From NCBI GenBank assembly GCA_016744855.1, contig JADGDO010000001.1, positions 1-64,000 of the forward strand: a stretch of DNA of 64,000 nucleotides. Direction: 5' to 3'. Under the pieces are notes generated by a model. That model searched no databases. It was given only the letters and a program-made list of their open reading frames with translations, and had not been told where the DNA came from. Shown one piece after another: positions 30,955 through 40,583 of this stretch. The stretch's first letter is position 1; the number at the start of each line of letters is the position of its first letter. This stretch comes from Candidatus Fermentibacteraceae bacterium (lineage in GTDB: Bacteria > Fermentibacterota > Fermentibacteria > Fermentibacterales > JCC-6). The position numbers were made by a program, and so were the translations under genes.

Positions 30955-31031
30955 CCACAATAGGAACTAAAGTGACTGTGGGCTGTGGCAAGATTTATGC
31001 TTATTAAATTACTGAAATGGGAGGTGTTGCT

Positions 31032-31484
31032 GTGCGAAAAGGATTCACTCTGATCGAGCTGATGATAGTTGTAATTATCATCGGTATTCTGGCAGCTATT
31101 GCGATACCCAAATACATTAGCGTTACCAAGAAAGCCGAGGCTGCACGGGTAATCTCTGATTTCAGAGTAATCGCTTCCGCTGTTCAGATGTATGTTGGCG
31201 AAACCGGAGAGTACCCTCCTGATTACTATCCCGGCGGTATTCCACGTGAGCTGAGGCCATATTTTGCAGATGGCTTTTCTTTCAATCTTCGACCCACCCT
31301 TGATGTCAGGTATGACTGGGAGAACTGGGTTCCTTATGGCTATCGGGTGATAGTTTACGGAGTTTCTGTAACAACTGATGATATGGCGCTGGTTAATGCC
31401 ATAGCTGAAGTTTATCAAGGTGAGTTCATGTGGTCTCTCAATAAAAATTACACATTTGTTATGGAATACAGACAAACGGATTAG
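31032..31484 (+). CDS. Type IV pilin-like protein (major/minor pseudopilin)
   Basis: A 150-residue protein starting at GTG 31032, six nt after GGAGG. It carries a class III signal: a short basic leader (MRKG), cleavage before Phe, conserved Glu at mature position 5 (FTLIEL) and the hydrophobic helix ending LAAIAIPKY. The C-terminal globular domain is rich in Tyr and Pro. It would be processed by a prepilin peptidase and assembled into a pilus or pseudopilus. No pilus ATPase or secretin is in the window. Confidence 0.88.
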   Translation: MRKGFTLIELMIVVIIIGILAAIAIPKYISVTKKAEAARVISDFRVIASAVQMYVGETGEYPPDYYPGGIPRELRPYFADGFSFNLRPTLDVRYDWENWVPYGYRVIVYGVSVTTDDMALVNAIAEVYQGEFMWSLNKNYTFVMEYRQTD

Positions 31485-31497
31485 GAGCGATCTAACT

Positions 31498-31890
31498 ATG
31501 AAAAAAGGATTCACTCTTATTGAGTTGATGATAGTTGTGGTTATTATCGGAATTCTTGCTGCTATAGCCATTCCGAAATTCCAGGATGTTTCTGCAAGCG
31601 CAAAGAAAGCTGCCTGCCGCTCCAATCAGAGGCTTGTTGTTGAAGGGCTGAACATGTACTTCGCAGATAATCAGGAGTACCCTGTGCTTAACAGATCAGC
31701 CTGGGTGGACTGGTATCTCGACGGTTATGTACCACAGAATCTGACCTGCCAGGAAGGTGGCGGTAAATACGCCTTCCAGGTTTACAAATCGTATAACAGT
31801 GATACATACCAGTTATGCTCATGGGCTTCTGATTCTGATTGCTGGCCTGTTCACGGATACATCTGGAACGGTAGTTTTAACTGGAATTAA
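31498..31890 (+). CDS. Type IV pilin-like protein
   Basis: A 130-residue second pilin-like protein, 13 nt after the first. The leader MKKG, the FTLIE start of the mature protein and the LAAIAIPKF helix are all present, and nucleotide similarity to the first pilin over this segment is obvious. The globular part differs and has several cysteines (AACRS, LTCQEG, LCSW, DCWP) that could form two disulfides. ATG 31498 is chosen by the leader; frame extends upstream within the previous gene. A strong terminator follows. Confidence 0.88.
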   Translation: MKKGFTLIELMIVVVIIGILAAIAIPKFQDVSASAKKAACRSNQRLVVEGLNMYFADNQEYPVLNRSAWVDWYLDGYVPQNLTCQEGGGKYAFQVYKSYNSDTYQLCSWASDSDCWPVHGYIWNGSFNWN

Positions 31891-31956: not shown

Positions 31957-33099
31957 CTACTCTGTTTCAAGTAGCCAGACTTTCTGGAATCCCTCTGCAG
32001 GGTCTTCTGCATATGCCAGGATGTTACCGTTGGTGAAATCGAAGTGCCAGGAGTGTCCGTCCGGCTGATTACCTTCAAGAACTACAGTTTTAAGGTATTC
32101 CCCTTCAGAGTTAAAAACCTTGAATGTGGGCTGTGCAGGGCCTCCCAAAAGAATCCAGAGATTTTTCTCTTCGTCGATCTCCAGTCCACGGATCATTGGT
32201 TTATAAGGAGCTGCCTCGAGAGAGGATACAGCATCTTCGCTACCCATAGCAAGAGCTTTTGCTACTAAAACCAGTCTTTCAGACTCCAGTTCTTCCTCAG
32301 TTCTTAGAACCGGCTCAAGGTCAAGCTCAATAGCAAATAGCTCTTGACCTGTCTGGTCATAGGCATAGACTATTGCCTCATCTGTTGATCTGGGTGCAAT
32401 GTAGAATCTGCCGGAAAAATCGCTAGCAAGGTCATAGCCAAACCAGACCAGGCTTATGATTGCACTCATATCCTGAGGATTAAATGGTATACGTTCTTCA
32501 AGGAAAACAACAAGTGGTTCATCCACTCCGATCTCATTCAGGGTGATTTGAATCAAAACCACTGGTTCTCCGTCTATAACTTCTACATCAAGGAATTTTC
32601 TCATATATGTTCTACCGGCTGCGCCTTCAAGGCAGGTCGGTGGAGAACCGAACGATGGTTCTGAACCAATCCACTCTCCTGTGTAGTAATCAAAAGCATG
32701 AATACCGAGTGTTTCAGAACCATCTCCAACAAGAATCAATGTTCCATCTTCTGTTATTGTAAGGAAAGCGGTGCTTATCAACTCACCTGGACCATTTCCC
32801 TCTCGGCTGATCTGCCTCAGAAATTCACCTTCAGGGGAGAATACCTTAATACAGCACGCTGCTCTATCGAGAACTGCGATGTTTCCATCAGGACCGGTGA
32901 TTGCCCCTTCTATAGCACCGAAAACCAGAGTGGGGTCTCCCAGATCTACCCCGATTGAATCAATTTTGAACATGCTGAGTGTCTCTTCAGCTTCCTGAAG
33001 AGTTTCATCGGAATCATTCTGAGACTCAGCTTCACTGCAACCTGAAGCAAAGGCTAGAGCTAAAAGGATTGCTATGCTCAGATAAAGAAAATGTTTCAT
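31957..33099 (-). CDS. 6-bladed beta-propeller lipoprotein, paralogue A
   Basis: A 380-residue lipoprotein starting at ATG 33099, preceded by AAAGGGG: signal peptide with lipobox FASGC (C21), an acidic linker, then a six-bladed propeller of the BF-type/NHL-like kind (GPDGNIAVLDRAACCIKVFSPEGEFLRQ, read in part). The Cys-Cys pair in DRAACCI and the motif RQISREGNGPGEL are shared with the neighbour. Upstream codons to 33150 are probably untranslated. Function unknown: such proteins bind ligands or act as scaffolds at the envelope. Confidence 0.75.
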   Translation of the reverse strand: MKHFLYLSIAILLALAFASGCSEAESQNDSDETLQEAEETLSMFKIDSIGVDLGDPTLVFGAIEGAITGPDGNIAVLDRAACCIKVFSPEGEFLRQISREGNGPGELISTAFLTITEDGTLILVGDGSETLGIHAFDYYTGEWIGSEPSFGSPPTCLEGAAGRTYMRKFLDVEVIDGEPVVLIQITLNEIGVDEPLVVFLEERIPFNPQDMSAIISLVWFGYDLASDFSGRFYIAPRSTDEAIVYAYDQTGQELFAIELDLEPVLRTEEELESERLVLVAKALAMGSEDAVSSLEAAPYKPMIRGLEIDEEKNLWILLGGPAQPTFKVFNSEGEYLKTVVLEGNQPDGHSWHFDFTNGNILAYAEDPAEGFQKVWLLETE

Positions 33100-33184
33100 T
33101 TTTTTCCCCTTTCGTTCTTTTGCGTTGTCAGTAGAAGGACAGAGAATCATTGAAAGCCGTTACAATCTGAAAATAGTGGTTGTT

Positions 33185-33331: not shown

Positions 33332-34474
33332 TCACTCAACTTCAAGAGTCCATACTTTCTGGAAACCGTCGGCAGGGTCTTCTGCGTATGCAAGAATGCT
33401 GTTGCTGAAATTGCTGAAACTGAAGTTCCAGGAGTTACCGTCCGGTTGGTCCCCTTGAAGAACTACACTGCGCTGGTACTCACCGAGATTATTGAAGACC
33501 TGGAATGTTGGCTGTGAGGGCCCTCCTAGAAGTACCCACAGATTTCCTGCGAAATCCACCTCAAGACCTCTTATCATAGATTTAAATTCGGAAGCTTCAA
33601 TTGAAGGTACTAATTCCGCTGCATCCATGGCCATTGCTCTTGCTGTGAGAATAAGCATTTCAGTTTCCAGTTCTTCTTCCGTTCTCAGCACAGGTTGTAT
33701 ATCAAGTTCAATTGTGAATAGTTCTTCTCCGGTAGAATCATATGCATAGACAATTGCCTCTTCCGTGGATCTGGGAGAAACATAGAATCTGCCTGAAAAA
33801 TCGCATGCAAGATCATATCCAAACCAGATCAGACTGATCAGATCTGAAATATTGTCTTGTTCAAACGGTATCCGATATTCATGGAATGTAACCAGAGGCT
33901 CTTCCATACCTACTTCATTAAGAGTTATCTGTACCACAACTTCAGGTTCACCGGTTGATGTATCAACATCAAGGAATTTCCGCATGTATGTTGAACCCGA
34001 TGCTCCTTCCAGACAAGTGGGCGGGGGATATGTATAGCATGGATCTGATCCAATCCACTGTCCGGTGAAGTAGTCAAAAGCATGAATACCCAGTATTTCC
34101 GAACCGTCGCCTGTAACAACAAGAGTTCCATCTTCAGTAATAGTTAGGAATGCTGTGGTGATCAGTTCTCCGGGGCCGTTGCCCTTCCGGCTTATCTGCC
34201 TCAGAAACTCACCATCAGGAGAGAAAACTCTTATACAGCAGGCAGCTCTGTCGAGAACGGCGATGTTGCCATCTGGGCCTCTTACTGCCCCTTCCACAGC
34301 TCCGAACACCTCTGAAGAATCACCCAGTTCAACTCCCATAGAGTCGATTTTAACAATGTAATCCGCTGAATCTTCAGTCTGTTGTGTTTCATCACTTGAT
34401 TTCTGCTGATTTGCATCTTTGCAACCTGCATTCATCAGAAGCAGTGTCGATAAAAACACTAGATACTTCAACAT
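33332..34474 (-). CDS. 6-bladed beta-propeller lipoprotein, paralogue B
   Basis: A 380-residue lipoprotein with lipobox MNAGC (C18), an acidic Gln/Ser-rich linker and the same propeller as the neighbour at 31957. Identity is high through RGPDGNIAVLDRAACCI, RQISRKGNGPGEL, the central 'STEEAIVYAYDSTGEELF' region and the end, making this a clear tandem duplication. The outer surface loops differ. Function unknown. Confidence 0.75.
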   Translation of the reverse strand: MLKYLVFLSTLLLMNAGCKDANQQKSSDETQQTEDSADYIVKIDSMGVELGDSSEVFGAVEGAVRGPDGNIAVLDRAACCIRVFSPDGEFLRQISRKGNGPGELITTAFLTITEDGTLVVTGDGSEILGIHAFDYFTGQWIGSDPCYTYPPPTCLEGASGSTYMRKFLDVDTSTGEPEVVVQITLNEVGMEEPLVTFHEYRIPFEQDNISDLISLIWFGYDLACDFSGRFYVSPRSTEEAIVYAYDSTGEELFTIELDIQPVLRTEEELETEMLILTARAMAMDAAELVPSIEASEFKSMIRGLEVDFAGNLWVLLGGPSQPTFQVFNNLGEYQRSVVLQGDQPDGNSWNFSFSNFSNSILAYAEDPADGFQKVWTLEVE

Positions 34475-34603: not shown

Positions 34604-35566
34604 TTACTTGATGAATTCTGAAGTAGCAGCAAAGACTGAATCCGGTCTGTCGACAACTGTCACACCCGCATCCTCCAGAGCTGCTTTCTTGGCCGAATAT
34701 GTTTCACTCTCGTTTCTGATCATCGCACCTGCATGACTCTGAGCTACTCCGGCTTCTGTGAATTTGCCACCGAGAAAAACAACAATCGGTTTTTTAATTT
34801 CTCCGTTTTTAACAGCCAGGGCTAGGTCATTTTCCTGAGTTGTTCCGGTTTCGGCATAGATAGCCATTACTTCTGTCCTTGGATCGGCTTCAAATGCCCT
34901 TGCAGCGTCAAGAATAGTAATTCCGGGTACAGGGTCTCCTCCTACACAGAGAACTGCGGAAAGACCGGGATAATCTTCTCCCCAGAGAGGGCCGAAGGAA
35001 CCATCGGGTTTAGGACCCGGAAGCTCTGGTCTGCAATGAAATGCTGCAAGCAATTGGCTTAACCCGCCAGATCTGCTGATAACACCGACTTTGCCCGGAA
35101 GGTAATTCTTTTTTGCCCAGGAAGCTTTTCCACCGATAAGACCGAACAGGTAACCATCTGTGTCGAGCATTCCAACAGTGTTTGGTCCCAAGCATTTTGC
35201 GCCTGTTTCAAATGCCTTTTCCTTAATCTTTATCGAATCCTGTGTTGCTACACCATCTGCTGTTAGAACCAGGAATTTTATTCCTGCGTCCATGGCGTCA
35301 TATGCAGCTCCTGCGATTGCACCAGCCGGTACAAAGAAAACAGCGCTGTTTATATCGGGATGAGCAGCTACTGCTTCAGCAGCAGTGTTGTAAACAGGGA
35401 CGCCATCAACTTCCTGTCCACCCTTACCGGGTGTTGTACCCGCTACTATTTCGGTGCCAAAGCCCCTCATCAATCTTGATCTACTTTTACCCTGACGACC
35501 GGTAATCCCGAATACAAGAACTCTGGGAGTATCGATATCACAAAGGTGTTTGAGAATGCCGGCCAT
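34604..35566 (-). CDS. Succinyl-CoA synthetase alpha-like (acyl-CoA ligase) subunit
   Basis: A 320-residue SucD-like protein: N-terminal CoA-binding Rossmann domain (VLVFGITGRQGKSRSRLM, AGTTPGKGGQEVDGVPV) and C-terminal ligase domain with the phosphorylated histidine at H278 (QSHAGAMIRN) and the VLCVGGDPVPG motif. Thus the catalytic His is conserved. An insertion of roughly 20-25 residues between SRSGGLSQLL and VLCVGGDP makes it longer than typical SucD. It would form an acyl-CoA and ADP/GDP-linked ligase with the beta-like subunit whose gene it follows (one-base overlap). The acyl substrate is unknown. Confidence 0.85.
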   Translation of the reverse strand: MAGILKHLCDIDTPRVLVFGITGRQGKSRSRLMRGFGTEIVAGTTPGKGGQEVDGVPVYNTAAEAVAAHPDINSAVFFVPAGAIAGAAYDAMDAGIKFLVLTADGVATQDSIKIKEKAFETGAKCLGPNTVGMLDTDGYLFGLIGGKASWAKKNYLPGKVGVISRSGGLSQLLAAFHCRPELPGPKPDGSFGPLWGEDYPGLSAVLCVGGDPVPGITILDAARAFEADPRTEVMAIYAETGTTQENDLALAVKNGEIKKPIVVFLGGKFTEAGVAQSHAGAMIRNESETYSAKKAALEDAGVTVVDRPDSVFAATSEFIK

Positions 35567-37029
35567 TATAGTACCTCCCCGGGAAGATCAAGCTCTATTG
35601 TGAGTTCACCGTTGCCCTCAAGAATTGAAACTGTTTCGCACACTAGGCATCCAATACATTTTGCCTCAGGGTTTGCAACGATTCTTCCGTTTTCCCACAG
35701 AAGGAATCCTGTCGGACATTCCTTTACGCAGATAGGTTCAATGTTATCAGGGTTTTTATCCGGATGGTAGATAAATCTTGCTGGGGGAGTTTTCACTTCA
35801 AAAGCAAGTTCACCGGCCTCAGGAGTGAATTTCTGTTGCACTCTGTGATCTGTTGCGATCTCGCTCAAATGTTCAACCATTGCATTGGGAAAAATCTCCG
35901 GTCGGAATGTTCTAATCTTTACAGGAAGACTCTGTGATACTTGTTCCAGAAGTTCCATCGCCTTTACCTGATCTGTTCCCCCGAAACGGAGAAGAGAGGG
36001 GAGGGGAGTTGCAGATTCTTTCAATGCTTTCCAGACTGCCGAGGCCAGATGATACTGGTTCTGGAAGGCCATTCCACTTCCTGTAAGAATAAGAACCTGT
36101 GCCTCTGGCTGGCTCATGATTGCTCTCAGGATTCTGTAGCTTTTAAATCCACTTAAACCACCGGAGGTATCACTCTCATTCAGGGAGAAAATGTCATCCC
36201 TGCCACCCGTAGTCATTTCCCAAAGCATTTTGCCCCCACCGCCGCAGAGGTTTGTAGCAACTGCAATGGTACCCTCAGGGGCCTTTTCTCTTGAGGCGCG
36301 GAAGAATCCGGTTCCGGCAGGGTCATCTGCATTGATAGCCTCTACTGCTTTTTCAAGCGGAGTACTGTCACTTGTGGAGCTTTCGGGCACTTTAAACAGT
36401 TCTGCATTTTTACGGGATACTGCATGCTTCTCGAATTCTGCCCGACAGTCTACTGCGATGTGTGAACCGTCTGCAAGGACTGCAATGGGGTTTGTTTCGA
36501 GAACTGTGAGCTTGTACCCGATAAAGGTTCTCGTCATTTTCTTCAGAAATTCAGCCAGTTCAGTTGAATTTGGAATTCCTTCAAGCTGTTTTTCAATATC
36601 ATCGGTTGAGGGGGGATTCAGGAGGCTGAACTTGATTTTGATCAAAGATGAAGTTCTTCCCTCAATTCCTGTTCCACCGTCAGGGCTGAATAGAATAACG
36701 CCACCCGGCAGGTTTTCTCCATCACCGAAATCTAGAAGGCAGGCTGCATAATACTCTTTTTTTATATCCACTGCCTGGGCTGAAAGAACTCCCTGGCAAT
36801 TTTCTTCAGCCAGTAGTTCCCTGAGCCCGTTTGCTATCTCATCAGGGGTTGACGCACGTCTTACAAGGCCTCTTCCAGCGCGACTGGTTGCCCCCGGAAT
36901 CTGGGCTTTCAGAAAGACTACAGGTTCGGGAAGGATTTCCGGCATTGCATCATGGAAGACGGCCGGTACCAGAGGTACATCATGATTTTCCAATAGAATT
37001 CTGGTTTTATACTCGGGCAGAGCCGGCAT
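35566..37029 (-). CDS. Succinyl-CoA synthetase beta-like subunit fused to a FixX-type ferredoxin domain
   Basis: A 487-residue protein. Residues about 1-215 resemble the ATP-grasp domain of SucC; residues about 220-420 resemble the flavodoxin-like beta C-domain (AVATNLCGGGGKMLWE, ILTGSGMAF). The last 60 residues are an extra domain with cysteines C434, C438 (followed by Pro), C458, C461 and C464, spaced CxxxCP-x19-CxxCxxC. That is the pattern of FixX and of the C-terminal ferredoxin of ETF-quinone oxidoreductase. Normal SucC is about 390 residues and has no iron-sulfur site. It lies 1 nt after a radical SAM gene. The fusion points to an acyl-CoA ligase that senses or moves electrons. Confidence 0.8.
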   Translation of the reverse strand: MPALPEYKTRILLENHDVPLVPAVFHDAMPEILPEPVVFLKAQIPGATSRAGRGLVRRASTPDEIANGLRELLAEENCQGVLSAQAVDIKKEYYAACLLDFGDGENLPGGVILFSPDGGTGIEGRTSSLIKIKFSLLNPPSTDDIEKQLEGIPNSTELAEFLKKMTRTFIGYKLTVLETNPIAVLADGSHIAVDCRAEFEKHAVSRKNAELFKVPESSTSDSTPLEKAVEAINADDPAGTGFFRASREKAPEGTIAVATNLCGGGGKMLWEMTTGGRDDIFSLNESDTSGGLSGFKSYRILRAIMSQPEAQVLILTGSGMAFQNQYHLASAVWKALKESATPLPSLLRFGGTDQVKAMELLEQVSQSLPVKIRTFRPEIFPNAMVEHLSEIATDHRVQQKFTPEAGELAFEVKTPPARFIYHPDKNPDNIEPICVKECPTGFLLWENGRIVANPEAKCIGCLVCETVSILEGNGELTIELDLPGEVL

Positions 37030-37030
37030 G

Positions 37031-38083
37031 CTATTCTCCTTTTTTCTTCATCTTAAGAAGAAGGTTGTCAGTTCTTTTAACTCCTTTGGCCCAGTCCAGG
37101 GCTACGGGAACATTGAGGGAATAAAGATAGTTGTATTCCGGATAGCAGGAAGCTGTACAGGCATTGCAGGGTAGATCACGTTCAGAGAGGTAATGAAACG
37201 CTTCCTTGAAGCCTCCATTCAGTGCATTTTTCGCACCTTCATATTCACCGATAAGCAATGAACAAGGGTAAACAGTTCCATCTACATCGATGTTGCAATA
37301 TGCTCTTCCGGCCATGCATGAGGGCCCGTAGAAGCGCTCCTGAATTCTGGTTTTTGAGTAATCCTGCCACTTAGAAGCTGCATTCAAATAGTTGTTGCTG
37401 AGCAGAATTGGAGCTCCTGCCTTTTTCATTGCGATCAATTTTTTGAAAGCATTCGAATACTCTTCAGCGGTCGGCATCATAGCAGAAGTATTTCCACCAA
37501 GTGTGTCATTGTGGTGAAGAGTCTGGAATGTTGTCATGAAGCCATACTTTTCTGCAGTGATCATGATTTCATCAAGAAGATGAATATTGTTTTTTGTGAG
37601 AACACTGATTGACCATAGCCGGACTTTGCCTGAAGCAGCTTCAAAGGCAGCTGTGACCTTATCCCAACTCCCTTCTTCACGATTTGCATCGTGAGCTTCC
37701 TTCGGTCCGTCATAAGAGAGAACAAGATGATCAATGTTGTTCAGGATTTCTGGTTGTGATGGTATGAAATAGCCGTTCGAATCAAGGCTCACATACATTC
37801 CCAGTTCCCTGGCATATGCACACAGTTCAACAATATCTTTCCTGGCGAGTGGCTCGCCGCCCCATACACCAATTCTCATTGTGCCCGCTTCAGCCATCTG
37901 TCTGAAAATGTCTTTCCATTGCTCTGTCGAAAGATCGGGTCTGCATCTGGAAGGAATCTGACAGTAAGAGCATCTGCTTGGGCAGCGATCTGTGACTGAA
38001 ACCATCACATTCAGCGGGGTTCTCGCGCCGAATCGGCACTTAAGAGCACCGATGCCCATTTTTGCCTGTCCTGCTAAATTCAT
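37031..38083 (-). CDS. Radical SAM/SPASM domain protein
   Basis: A 350-residue protein with radical SAM cysteines C34, C38, C41 (CPSRCSYC), the GGEP motif (VWGGEPLARK) and a C-terminal SPASM-type cysteine region (GPSCMAGRAYCNIDVDGTVYPC ... LPCNACTASC, in part). SPASM proteins modify peptides or small molecules and often need a partner redox protein. It overlaps the DUF362 gene by 4 nt and is adjacent to the ferredoxin-fused SucC-like gene, which could supply or take electrons. Substrate unknown. Confidence 0.85.
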   Translation of the reverse strand: MNLAGQAKMGIGALKCRFGARTPLNVMVSVTDRCPSRCSYCQIPSRCRPDLSTEQWKDIFRQMAEAGTMRIGVWGGEPLARKDIVELCAYARELGMYVSLDSNGYFIPSQPEILNNIDHLVLSYDGPKEAHDANREEGSWDKVTAAFEAASGKVRLWSISVLTKNNIHLLDEIMITAEKYGFMTTFQTLHHNDTLGGNTSAMMPTAEEYSNAFKKLIAMKKAGAPILLSNNYLNAASKWQDYSKTRIQERFYGPSCMAGRAYCNIDVDGTVYPCSLLIGEYEGAKNALNGGFKEAFHYLSERDLPCNACTASCYPEYNYLYSLNVPVALDWAKGVKRTDNLLLKMKKKGE

Positions 38084-39099
38084 TTCTCCTCCGGTTCACC
38101 GAGCCACTGAGGGCCGTAGGGAAGGCTCTTCTTCCATTCATCAGCTTCTTTTTTCTGACCGAATATGGAATAAGATAAGTTGTACCAGCGCTTTGCACCG
38201 GCTTTCATTACACCAATGAGAGGACCATCCTTTTGAGATTCTTTTTCCTTATTCTTTCCGCGTATTCTTTTCTCCACCTTAGCCACAAAGTTGGGTTGAG
38301 CCTGCTTGAAGTTGAAGGACGGAAGTTTCTCAAGAGGGGGGATGCATACATTTTCCAGTTCATCAAGGGATCCAACCTGTCCGTTTCCCTTTTGTATGCA
38401 TTCCACACTGAGTGGGTCAATACCCATAACCTCAGCAATTGAGTGATCCATGGCTACCGGGTCTGTAGAAAGGGCAACGAAGTCTGTCTGCTTGGAGATT
38501 CCGGGTTTGGGGCCATTACCCTCAAGGCTTACAGTGCCATCAGCCAGAATGAATTTAACAGGTATCGCCTTGTTCACAGCAACTATGTAATCAGATAGTC
38601 TGCCGTGATAGTTGTGTCTTCCATCGTTTAGACAACCGTAAAGATGCTTCATCGCTACAGAGATCACAGATCTGTAGTGAGTTTTTACTACCGGAACTGA
38701 GATTACCGGCATTCGTGTACATATCTCTGGTATTCCAAAGGTGAGACCATCAACGGTGACTTCCTTCCAGGGGTTTTCGCTGAAATTATGCCAGATCAGC
38801 CCCTGTCTTTCTATAACTGCATCCATTTTCTGTACACGAAGAGCCTTTGAAGCGTCAACGAGTATCTGGCTGGATTCACCTATATAGATCTGTCCGGTGT
38901 ATTCCTTCAAACGACTGCATAAAGCTTCAACAACCCATGGGGAGGTGTTAACACCCGGGCGAAGATAGTCCCAGGTAAGGTTTACTTTTATCAGTACGTC
39001 CTGACCCTGCTCGAGTTTTTCACGCCAGGCAAAGTTCTCAAGCAGCCTTCCGACAGCCCTGTCTACTCCTGCTTCGGTTGAAGTGTAAAGTACTTTCAT
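38080..39099 (-). CDS. DUF362 domain protein
   Basis: A 339-residue DUF362 protein: VLIKVNLTWDYLRPGVNTSPWVVEAL, SVPVVKTHYRSVISVAMKHLYG (both quoted in part) and LSTDPVAMDHSIAEVMG. Many DUF362 proteins end in a ferredoxin domain; here none is visible, and the C-terminal 100 residues are basic with few Cys. The family function is not established. It is the first gene of the leftward operon leading to the SucC/SucD-like pair, suggesting a common pathway. Confidence 0.85.
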   Translation of the reverse strand: MKVLYTSTEAGVDRAVGRLLENFAWREKLEQGQDVLIKVNLTWDYLRPGVNTSPWVVEALCSRLKEYTGQIYIGESSQILVDASKALRVQKMDAVIERQGLIWHNFSENPWKEVTVDGLTFGIPEICTRMPVISVPVVKTHYRSVISVAMKHLYGCLNDGRHNYHGRLSDYIVAVNKAIPVKFILADGTVSLEGNGPKPGISKQTDFVALSTDPVAMDHSIAEVMGIDPLSVECIQKGNGQVGSLDELENVCIPPLEKLPSFNFKQAQPNFVAKVEKRIRGKNKEKESQKDGPLIGVMKAGAKRWYNLSYSIFGQKKEADEWKKSLPYGPQWLGEPEEK

Positions 39100-39284: not shown

Positions 39285-39908
39285 TTGAAAAGAAGTTTGT
39301 TTATTCTTATGCTAGTCTGTGTTGCTGCATCTTTTGCAGCTCGTTTGGAAATAACAAATGATACCGGCAGCTACACGTTTTACTATGTGAAGATCTCATT
39401 ATCCTCAGCAGATTCCTGGGGTGATGACAGACTGGGCTCAAGCGAGACTATCAGCCCCGGTGATACCCGCTCATTCCGTCTTAGTAATGGCACATACGAT
39501 GTTAAGATTGAAGACGAAGATGGAGACGAATACGTTTTCTGGAATGTTGACGTAAGCGGCACTGTTAGTATGTATGTCGATCTCGATGATCTTGGAGAGC
39601 AGAATTGGGGAAGTGGTTCCTCTTCATCATCCTACGGCGGAGATATGGCTCCTGTTACTATCGATAACGAACTCGGCAGCTGGACTATCTGGTATGTATA
39701 TGGTGATCCAAGTGATTCACCATGGGGTGATGACCGTCTCGGTTCAGAGCTTCTTTCTCCGGGCGAGGCTTTTACATTCTACGTACCCGCTGGTGACTAC
39801 TACGATTTCAAGTGTGTTGACGAAGATGATGACACATACACCCTCTGGGAAGTATGGGTTGATGAGGATGGTTTCTACTGGAGCGTAGAGCTCTCTGACA
39901 TGGATTAA
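39285..39908 (+). CDS. Exported protein with two tandem copies of a small 'WGDDRLG' domain
   Basis: A 207-residue exported protein starting at TTG 39285, five nt after GGGAGGAA. The signal peptide is KRSLFILMLVCVAASFA. It contains two repeats of about 80 residues, each with L/V-x-I-x-N-[DE]-x-G, a Tyr/Trp-rich strand, WGDDRLGS, LSPG-like turn, a F-x-[LV] strand, YDx[KF], and VDEDDDTY/EDEDGDEY, then a final W-N/E-V. The linker is Ser/Gly-rich. The domain looks like a beta-sandwich. A related single domain occurs at 53198 and possibly 62018. Function unknown. Confidence 0.7.
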   Translation: MKRSLFILMLVCVAASFAARLEITNDTGSYTFYYVKISLSSADSWGDDRLGSSETISPGDTRSFRLSNGTYDVKIEDEDGDEYVFWNVDVSGTVSMYVDLDDLGEQNWGSGSSSSSYGGDMAPVTIDNELGSWTIWYVYGDPSDSPWGDDRLGSELLSPGEAFTFYVPAGDYYDFKCVDEDDDTYTLWEVWVDEDGFYWSVELSDMD

Positions 39909-39925
39909 TCCAGGATAAATTAATA

Positions 39926-39961
39926 ATGGGGGGGCCGTTTATCGGCTCCCTCATTTTTTTT
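39926..39961 (+). terminator. Rho-independent terminator with T8
   Basis: A 12-bp stem with two G-T wobbles (39926-39937 with 39943-39954), 5-nt loop and eight T's, just after the stop of the repeat protein. It overlaps the last codons of nth on the other strand. Confidence 0.8.
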
Positions 39962-40583
39962 GAGCACTGAACCAGGGACAGAGATTGACAAGTGTACAGA
40001 TCGTGCATAGAGGTTTTCTTGCCTTACAAACTTTTCTACCATGTGTTATCAACCTGTGGCAGAATATTGTCTGCTGACTTCCAGGAATCAGTCTTTTCAA
40101 TTCTATCTCGATTTTGTCAGGATTTTGGCTCTCGGTCAGACCCAATCGTAGAGATTGCCTTTTAACATGTGTGTCTACAGTTATTGAAGGCTTACCGAAT
40201 ATTTCACCTGTTACCACGTTTGCGGTTTTCCTTCCGACCCCGGGTATTTTCACCAGCTCTGAAATTGTGTCCGGAAGCCCATTTTCGGCCATAAAAGCGG
40301 CTGCTTTGATGATGAATCCTGCTTTGTTCCTGAAGAGACCGATAGTCTTAAGAGTTTCTTCCACATCGGGCTTATCGGCATGAGAAAGGTCCTTCATTGT
40401 CGGATATTTTTTCCATAAAACTGGAGTTACCCTGTTCACGGCCGCGTCTGTGGTTTGTGCAGAAAGGATAGTGGCAATAACAAGTCTTTCCGGGATTCCA
40501 TCATACTTAAGCTGACATTCCGCATGCGGATAAAGCTTTTTCAGTGAATCAAGAATGATACAAATGTTTTTTTCATTTTTCAT
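39951..40583 (-). CDS. nth: Endonuclease III
   Basis: A 210-residue DNA glycosylase/AP lyase for oxidised pyrimidines. It shows the HhH motif IPGVGRKTAN with catalytic K119, catalytic D137 (VDTHVKR), and the C-terminal [4Fe-4S] cysteines spaced CX6CX2CX5C (CKARKPLCTICTLVNLC). It is full-length for the family. It lies 10 nt downstream of an exported-protein gene on the same strand; nth is probably co-transcribed with it. Confidence 0.93.
   Translation of the reverse strand: MKNEKNICIILDSLKKLYPHAECQLKYDGIPERLVIATILSAQTTDAAVNRVTPVLWKKYPTMKDLSHADKPDVEETLKTIGLFRNKAGFIIKAAAFMAENGLPDTISELVKIPGVGRKTANVVTGEIFGKPSITVDTHVKRQSLRLGLTESQNPDKIEIELKRLIPGSQQTIFCHRLITHGRKVCKARKPLCTICTLVNLCPWFSAQKK

Follow-up and report, generated by a model that had tools for sequence, protein, structure and literature searches.

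The DNA analysed here (the window) is a stretch of 64,000 nucleotides from a genome of Candidatus Sabulitectum (phylum Fermentibacterota; G000 in the genome sample), described as a strictly anaerobic fermenter (PMC5763382). Between positions 39099 and 34604 it carries four tightly packed minus-strand genes, an operon-like set encoding, in order, a DUF362 protein (339 amino acids (aa), 38080..39099), a radical SAM protein with a SPASM/twitch-like C-terminus (350 aa, 37031..38083), a SucC-like beta subunit with a fused C-terminal ferredoxin domain (487 aa, 35566..37029) and a SucD-like alpha subunit (320 aa, 34604..35566). The same four leftward genes had been named in a first-pass annotation of this DNA, with which both the open reading frames and Pfam agree: scores over cut-off were obtained for DUF362 (115.3 bits; cut-off 24), Radical_SAM (65.6; 29.5) and ATP-grasp_2 (32.8; 29.5) and, on the ligase pair, for CoA_binding (75.8 bits) and Ligase_CoA (32.3 bits). 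The tight packing it described also stood, whereas its overlaps or gaps of 1-2 nt were not exact: DUF362 and radical SAM overlap by 4 nt, radical SAM and SucC-like are 1 nt apart, and SucC-like and SucD-like overlap by 1 nt. The co-occurrence it proposed to look for was examined in a sample of 385 genomes, 42 of them Fermentibacterota (G000-G041), in which incomplete metagenome-assembled genomes (MAGs) blur absences; the same gene order recurs across the phylum and is kept in nearly all of its ligase carriers.

The SucC-like protein consists of an ATP-grasp region (residues 1-200), a CoA-ligase/substrate domain (about 240-395) and the ferredoxin-like tail (about 405-487; 35569..35817, minus strand). 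Its residues E178, N180 and D194, which we take to correspond to E197, N199 and D213 of Escherichia coli SucC, were invariant in the alignment. A frameshift or assembly error joining two genes near codon 425, raised as a possible objection by the first-pass annotation, was ruled out, since profile searches with the SucC-like protein recovered the fusion in 30 of the 42 genomes from the phylum and full-length tailed relatives in nine genomes of other families (E 1e-41 to 1e-63, at a threshold of 1e-40 or better). The label "other families", like "Aquificota-type" below, rests on gene content and kinship labels. Two of the SucC-ferredoxin genes, L127:9257-10828 and L132:8534-10081, have no adjoining SucD, and that of L127 comes after a carboxyltransferase-like gene. 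No description of a ferredoxin-fused SucC or citryl-CoA synthetase (CCS) was found in the open-licence literature searched.

Only four cysteines of the tail are invariant across Fermentibacterota-type and distant rows, namely C438 (codon 35718-35716), C458 (35658-35656), C461 (35649-35647) and C464 (35640-35638), and together they make up exactly one predicted [4Fe-4S] site. C434, which had been proposed as a further member of this site, is Ser in several rows and was dismissed as a ligand, its position being a non-conserved remnant. In a ferredoxin with two clusters, these four positions are those of the ligands of cluster 2. Most distant relatives, as well as L046 and L047, keep the cysteines for both; those of the first have been lost in the remaining Fermentibacterota-type group and, separately, in L130, but those of the second in none, a pattern of repeated loss and strict retention that argues for a functional [4Fe-4S] cluster in the tail, for which a role in electron transfer is possible. 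The tail alone exceeded the Fer4 model PF00037 (21.6 bits; cut-off 21.1), its profile matches included HycB and 8ys5_D, the ferredoxin subunit of a 2-oxoglutarate:acceptor oxidoreductase (E 1.2e-5), and its predicted structure, modelled without a cluster, had a pLDDT near 90 across most of its length.

In the SucD-like protein, the active-site histidine pointed out by the first-pass annotation (H278, codon 34735-34733) was invariant in a 15-row alignment, as was the catalytic glutamate E239. With E178, N180, D194, E239 and H278 all intact, the catalytic residues of the superfamily are complete and the pair is a catalytically plausible ligase, as had been suggested. Its motif SRSGGLSQ, at the start of a helix, differs from the canonical S[RK]SGTLTY. 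The SGG at its core is of the CCS type and was present in 25/25 loci of the Fermentibacterota type and in every distant relative that was aligned or scanned, in contrast to SGT in 38/38 canonical SucD loci; it was also found in an Aquificota-type CCS small subunit (CcsB, L101) encoded beside its lyase, a single reference. The SucD-like protein also has an 18-aa insert that neither canonical SucD nor the distant relatives share.

In a 61-row tree, of which the root is not known and which carried long-branch and composition warnings, the ligase family formed a clade of its own (support 100/99), outside canonical SucC and apart from ATP-citrate lyase (ACL) and CCS. Within it, the Fermentibacterota-type group sits on a long stem (2.52 changes per site) as sister to the distant group. 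The NCBIfam succinate-CoA ligase models were missed (198.5 vs a cut-off of 336 and 56 vs 370 bits), and no model specific to this branch was found among the Pfam and NCBIfam models matched. Citrate_bind (PF16114) was passed narrowly by most distant relatives (27-31 bits, one under); a Sabulitectum orthologue scored 20.4 against a cut-off of 26.8, and some SucC-sized proteins (390-424 aa) exceeded the cut-off too. Forming a clade of its own, the ligase counts as distinct from both canonical SucCD and the known CCS. Fermentibacterota-type ligases were also found in L039, L040, L041 and L034, whose database records are titled Myxococcota, Riflebacteria and Phycisphaerae, and since they nest within the Fermentibacterota group, gene transfer between phyla is likely, those phylum labels being the ones given in the records. 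The four host genomes measure 4.4-7.1 Mb.

Outside Fermentibacterota, the company kept by the ligase genes is of another kind, read past the lyase only where contigs reach further. A short citryl-CoA-lyase homologue directly follows SucD in six of the nine distant loci (L124, L125, L126, L128, L129, L131), with an HD protein and aconitase-family genes further downstream in L124, L125, L126 and L129 and an isocitrate/homoisocitrate-dehydrogenase (IDH) homologue in the L125 and L126 loci. The lyase is present in 8/9 distant carrier genomes, twice on another contig, the one carrier without it being G281, the genome of L127; all four lyases tested exceeded the cut-off of at least one NCBIfam citryl-CoA-lyase subfamily. 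In L039 (titled Myxococcota) and L041 (Phycisphaerae), a single operon runs IDH-HD-LeuCD-LeuC-LeuD-lyase-ligase, and the lyase of the L039 type carries an insert of about 80 aa. As canonical SucC occurs in six and full-length citrate synthase in eight of the nine distant genomes, the ligase is not simply the succinyl-CoA ligase of these cells. The aconitase of L125 passed the homoaconitase cut-off (762.6 vs 529.9), and fungi require two aconitase-family enzymes for homocitrate (PMC3556520), so that the acid activated may belong to the homocitrate series. The HD-domain protein is steadily paired with the dehydrogenase or the lyase (L039:1436-2011, L124:10523-11056, L189:10435-10992). A gene for a bacterial-microcompartment-shell-like protein (L125:4063-4656) lies within a few kb of the L125 ligase operon.

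The window genome holds the same parts, the lyase excepted, in scattered form: LeuC/LeuD pairs are encoded at two loci (L171, L172), and the IDH and HD genes stand side by side at L189, their products being 71% and 58% identical to the L039 counterparts; these last two genes are likewise adjacent in seven further ligase carriers. Among genomes at least 90% complete, and with kinship ignored, IDH presence followed that of the ligase (15/16 vs 2/6; Fisher p=0.009), in contrast to that of the radical SAM gene (18/18 vs 5/6; p=0.25). It is the dehydrogenase-HD pair and the aconitase-family genes that the ligase tracks with, not the DUF362 and radical SAM genes.

The radical SAM protein has a CxxxCxxC motif (C34/C38/C41) and six more invariant cysteines in its C-terminal half, and fell below the cut-off of every NCBIfam model listed (best 25 of 52 shown). 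It occurs with no detected ligase in six Fermentibacterota loci examined in context (L207-L212), several at the same syntenic place; the genomes concerned hold it either together with DUF362 (G013, G037, G040) or alone (G016, G018, G011). Orthologues outside the phylum (L213-L221) lie among glycan-type genes (carbamoyltransferase-, glycoside-hydrolase- and glycosyltransferase-type, identified by eye from sequence) with no adjoining ligase. Conversely, ligase relatives in other phyla have neither radical SAM nor DUF362 alongside, and no orthologue of the radical SAM protein was found in the four genomes L034 and L039-L041. A role as replacement for the lyase was considered unlikely, since the radical SAM protein persists where the ligase is absent. 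The DUF362 protein has no ferredoxin-type cysteine motif; its gene does not accompany the operon in the Fermentibacter clade or in certain others, and the loci L133 and L048 lack it at that place. No solved relative was found for it by sequence and its predicted model was weak (pLDDT 61). Its family (PF04015) shares a Pfam clan with the lactate racemase LarA (PMC11770544), which is taken as a lead only. Radical SAM and DUF362 would seem to form a separable unit with a function of their own.

Taken together, the explanation preferred here, with a probability of about 0.52, makes SucC-ferredoxin and SucD an acyl-CoA ligase from the superfamily of succinyl-CoA and citryl-CoA synthetases, which most likely activates a citrate- or homocitrate-type hydroxy-tricarboxylic acid, not succinate, and whose tail would dock a redox partner or gate the enzyme. 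The substrate is suggested by the genes found around its relatives, for a lyase, aconitase-family enzymes and IDH, and by the SGG of the SucD-like subunit. The reaction would be ATP + acid + CoA <-> ADP + Pi + acyl-CoA by way of a phospho-histidine at H278, and may also run in reverse, making ATP. The single [4Fe-4S] cluster would most likely dock a redox partner or sense the redox state and so gate the ligase. The ancestral partners would have been an enzyme of the citryl-CoA-lyase type, hydro-lyases of the aconitase family (one or two), a (homo)isocitrate-dehydrogenase-type enzyme and the HD-domain protein; in Fermentibacterota the partner genes are scattered and the lyase is missing, while radical SAM and DUF362 would share the operon as a separable unit. 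A bolder form, which we regard as unlikely, would add the enzyme to the tricarboxylate-CoA ligases as a third kind, its fused [4Fe-4S] ferredoxin domain gating or wiring it, and place it in a homocitrate-type pathway that stores thioester energy as ATP, with a non-homologous lyase in Fermentibacterota. That the pathway itself comprises ligase and lyase in place of homocitrate synthase, two aconitase-family enzymes and a homoisocitrate-type dehydrogenase belongs to the same proposal and is equally doubtful.

Several observations weigh against a tricarboxylic substrate. In the tree the family has SucC as its neighbour and lies outside ACL/CCS, the structure search ties CCS (6hxq) with SucC (Z 24.7 vs 24.4), and the window's own beta subunit was not matched by Citrate_bind at its cut-off. 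The genus Sabulitectum has no canonical SucC, so that a succinate role is conceivable there, and none of the curated models for a single substrate fits the IDH and aconitase homologues of the phylum. A search for the citrate-synthase fold found no such protein, hence no such lyase, in the window genome, CitE-type lyases and Re-citrate/homocitrate synthase lying outside that search; nearly all Fermentibacterota relatives likewise have neither lyase nor citrate synthase, a few having an ordinary citrate synthase. A standard tricarboxylic acid (TCA) cycle in the window genome was rejected on the same absence, and the first-pass annotation was right that the gene set is not a standard sucCD/TCA arrangement. 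Finally, the very long Fermentibacterota stem means that the substrate may have changed in that group.

Some of these points would be accommodated if the enzyme were a divergent succinyl-CoA synthetase whose tail docks 2-oxoglutarate (or another 2-oxoacid):ferredoxin oxidoreductase and passes on succinyl-CoA and electrons within one complex. SucC is the nearest clade, the best sequence scores go to SucD and SucC, Sabulitectum offers no canonical SucC, and 8ys5_D is among the tail matches; yet the curated succinate-CoA ligase cut-offs were missed, the motif is SGG, not SGT, the operon contains no oxidoreductase gene, canonical SucC is present as well in six of the nine distant carriers and in Aegiribacteria, and outside Fermentibacterota a citryl-CoA-lyase homologue is the constant companion, which makes this explanation unlikely. 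Drift of the Fermentibacterota ligase to a new acid outside the citrate series after loss of the lyase would agree with the long stem, the inserts in the SucD-like protein and the L039-type lyase, and the lack of a lyase in the window genome; it is judged quite improbable, as the same subgroup still stands beside lyase, aconitase-family and IDH genes in L039 and L041 and G000 retains orthologues of all of these bar the lyase. More doubtful still is the proposal of the first-pass annotation that the four genes are one functional system, an electron-linked acyl-CoA pathway or a modification system. The tight gene order conserved in the ligase carriers of the phylum speaks for it, but radical SAM, with or without DUF362, is found without the ligase, the ligase occurs in other phyla without either, and neither L133 nor L048 has DUF362 next to the operon; the persistence of radical SAM in relatives that have no ligase leaves a four-protein system weakly supported. 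Of that annotation's interpretation, the fusion, the plausible ligase, the non-standard arrangement and the conserved order were thus retained and the joint system was not.

As key steps, citrate cleavage and the reverse reaction determine in which direction, forwards or backwards, the TCA cycle runs. For the cleavage step, a survey (PMC9802188) discusses only ACL, CCS with citryl-CoA lyase (CCL), and reversible citrate synthase. A separate iron-sulfur-bearing ligase branch in several uncultured phyla would add a new enzyme for the citrate step or the homocitrate series, and its built-in [4Fe-4S] domain would open redox control of CoA ligases to experiment. In MAGs such genes would probably be annotated as sucC and sucD, a likely error, and TCA cycles inferred from them; the label "SucC-like" is not meant to imply activity on succinate.

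A terminator-like 12-bp stem lies 25 nt past the SucD stop (34579-34553, minus strand). It is a consensus match only and, as such sites are no more numerous in the region than in shuffled sequence, is compatible with an operon end, no more. Just downstream are two similar tandem genes for 6-bladed beta-propeller (DUF5128) lipoprotein-like products (33332-34474 and 31957-33150), with close family members (cluster 12) in several Sabulitectum loci, followed by two tandem prepilin-like genes on the plus strand (31420-31890 and 31017-31484; KGFTLIELMIVV...). On the other side, a small secreted-type protein with no Pfam match (39285-39908) and an endonuclease III-like gene (39951-40583), clusters 5 and 7, are found in conserved order beside the operon in much of the phylum.

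Among the closest characterized systems is the two-step citrate cleavage of Hydrogenobacter thermophilus by the citryl-CoA synthetase CcsA/CcsB and the citryl-CoA lyase Ccl (PMC9802188; structures 6hxq and 6hxp). Like CCS, the present ligase is a two-subunit ATP-grasp enzyme with a predicted phospho-histidine and SGG in its small subunit; its relatives are accompanied by a short citryl-CoA-lyase-type protein, and CCS is its best structural match, tied with SucC. Unlike CCS, it belongs to a separate clade and bears a fused ferredoxin tail, the operons of its relatives add aconitase-family, IDH and HD genes, and the window genome has no lyase. With SucCD it shares the fold, the ATP-grasp domain and the catalytic Glu, Asn, Asp and His, and it is nearest to it in overall sequence, but it falls under the curated cut-offs and differs in having SGG for SGT, a ferredoxin tail of about 80-90 residues and other gene company. 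The tail resembles the ferredoxin-type subunits HycB, DmsB and KorD in its cysteine spacing (CP...CxxCxxC), its profile match and its Fer4 score over cut-off; unlike them, it is fused to a ligase and keeps one of two clusters in most Fermentibacterota-type members and in L130. The radical SAM protein is similar to PqqE-like radical SAM/SPASM proteins in its core and its Cys-rich C-terminus, with PqqE (6c8v) as best Protein Data Bank match, but reaches none of the curated models listed and lies in glycan-type neighbourhoods outside the phylum, and the first protein of the operon resembles the DUF362 family (PF04015) in carrying its domain (115 bits).

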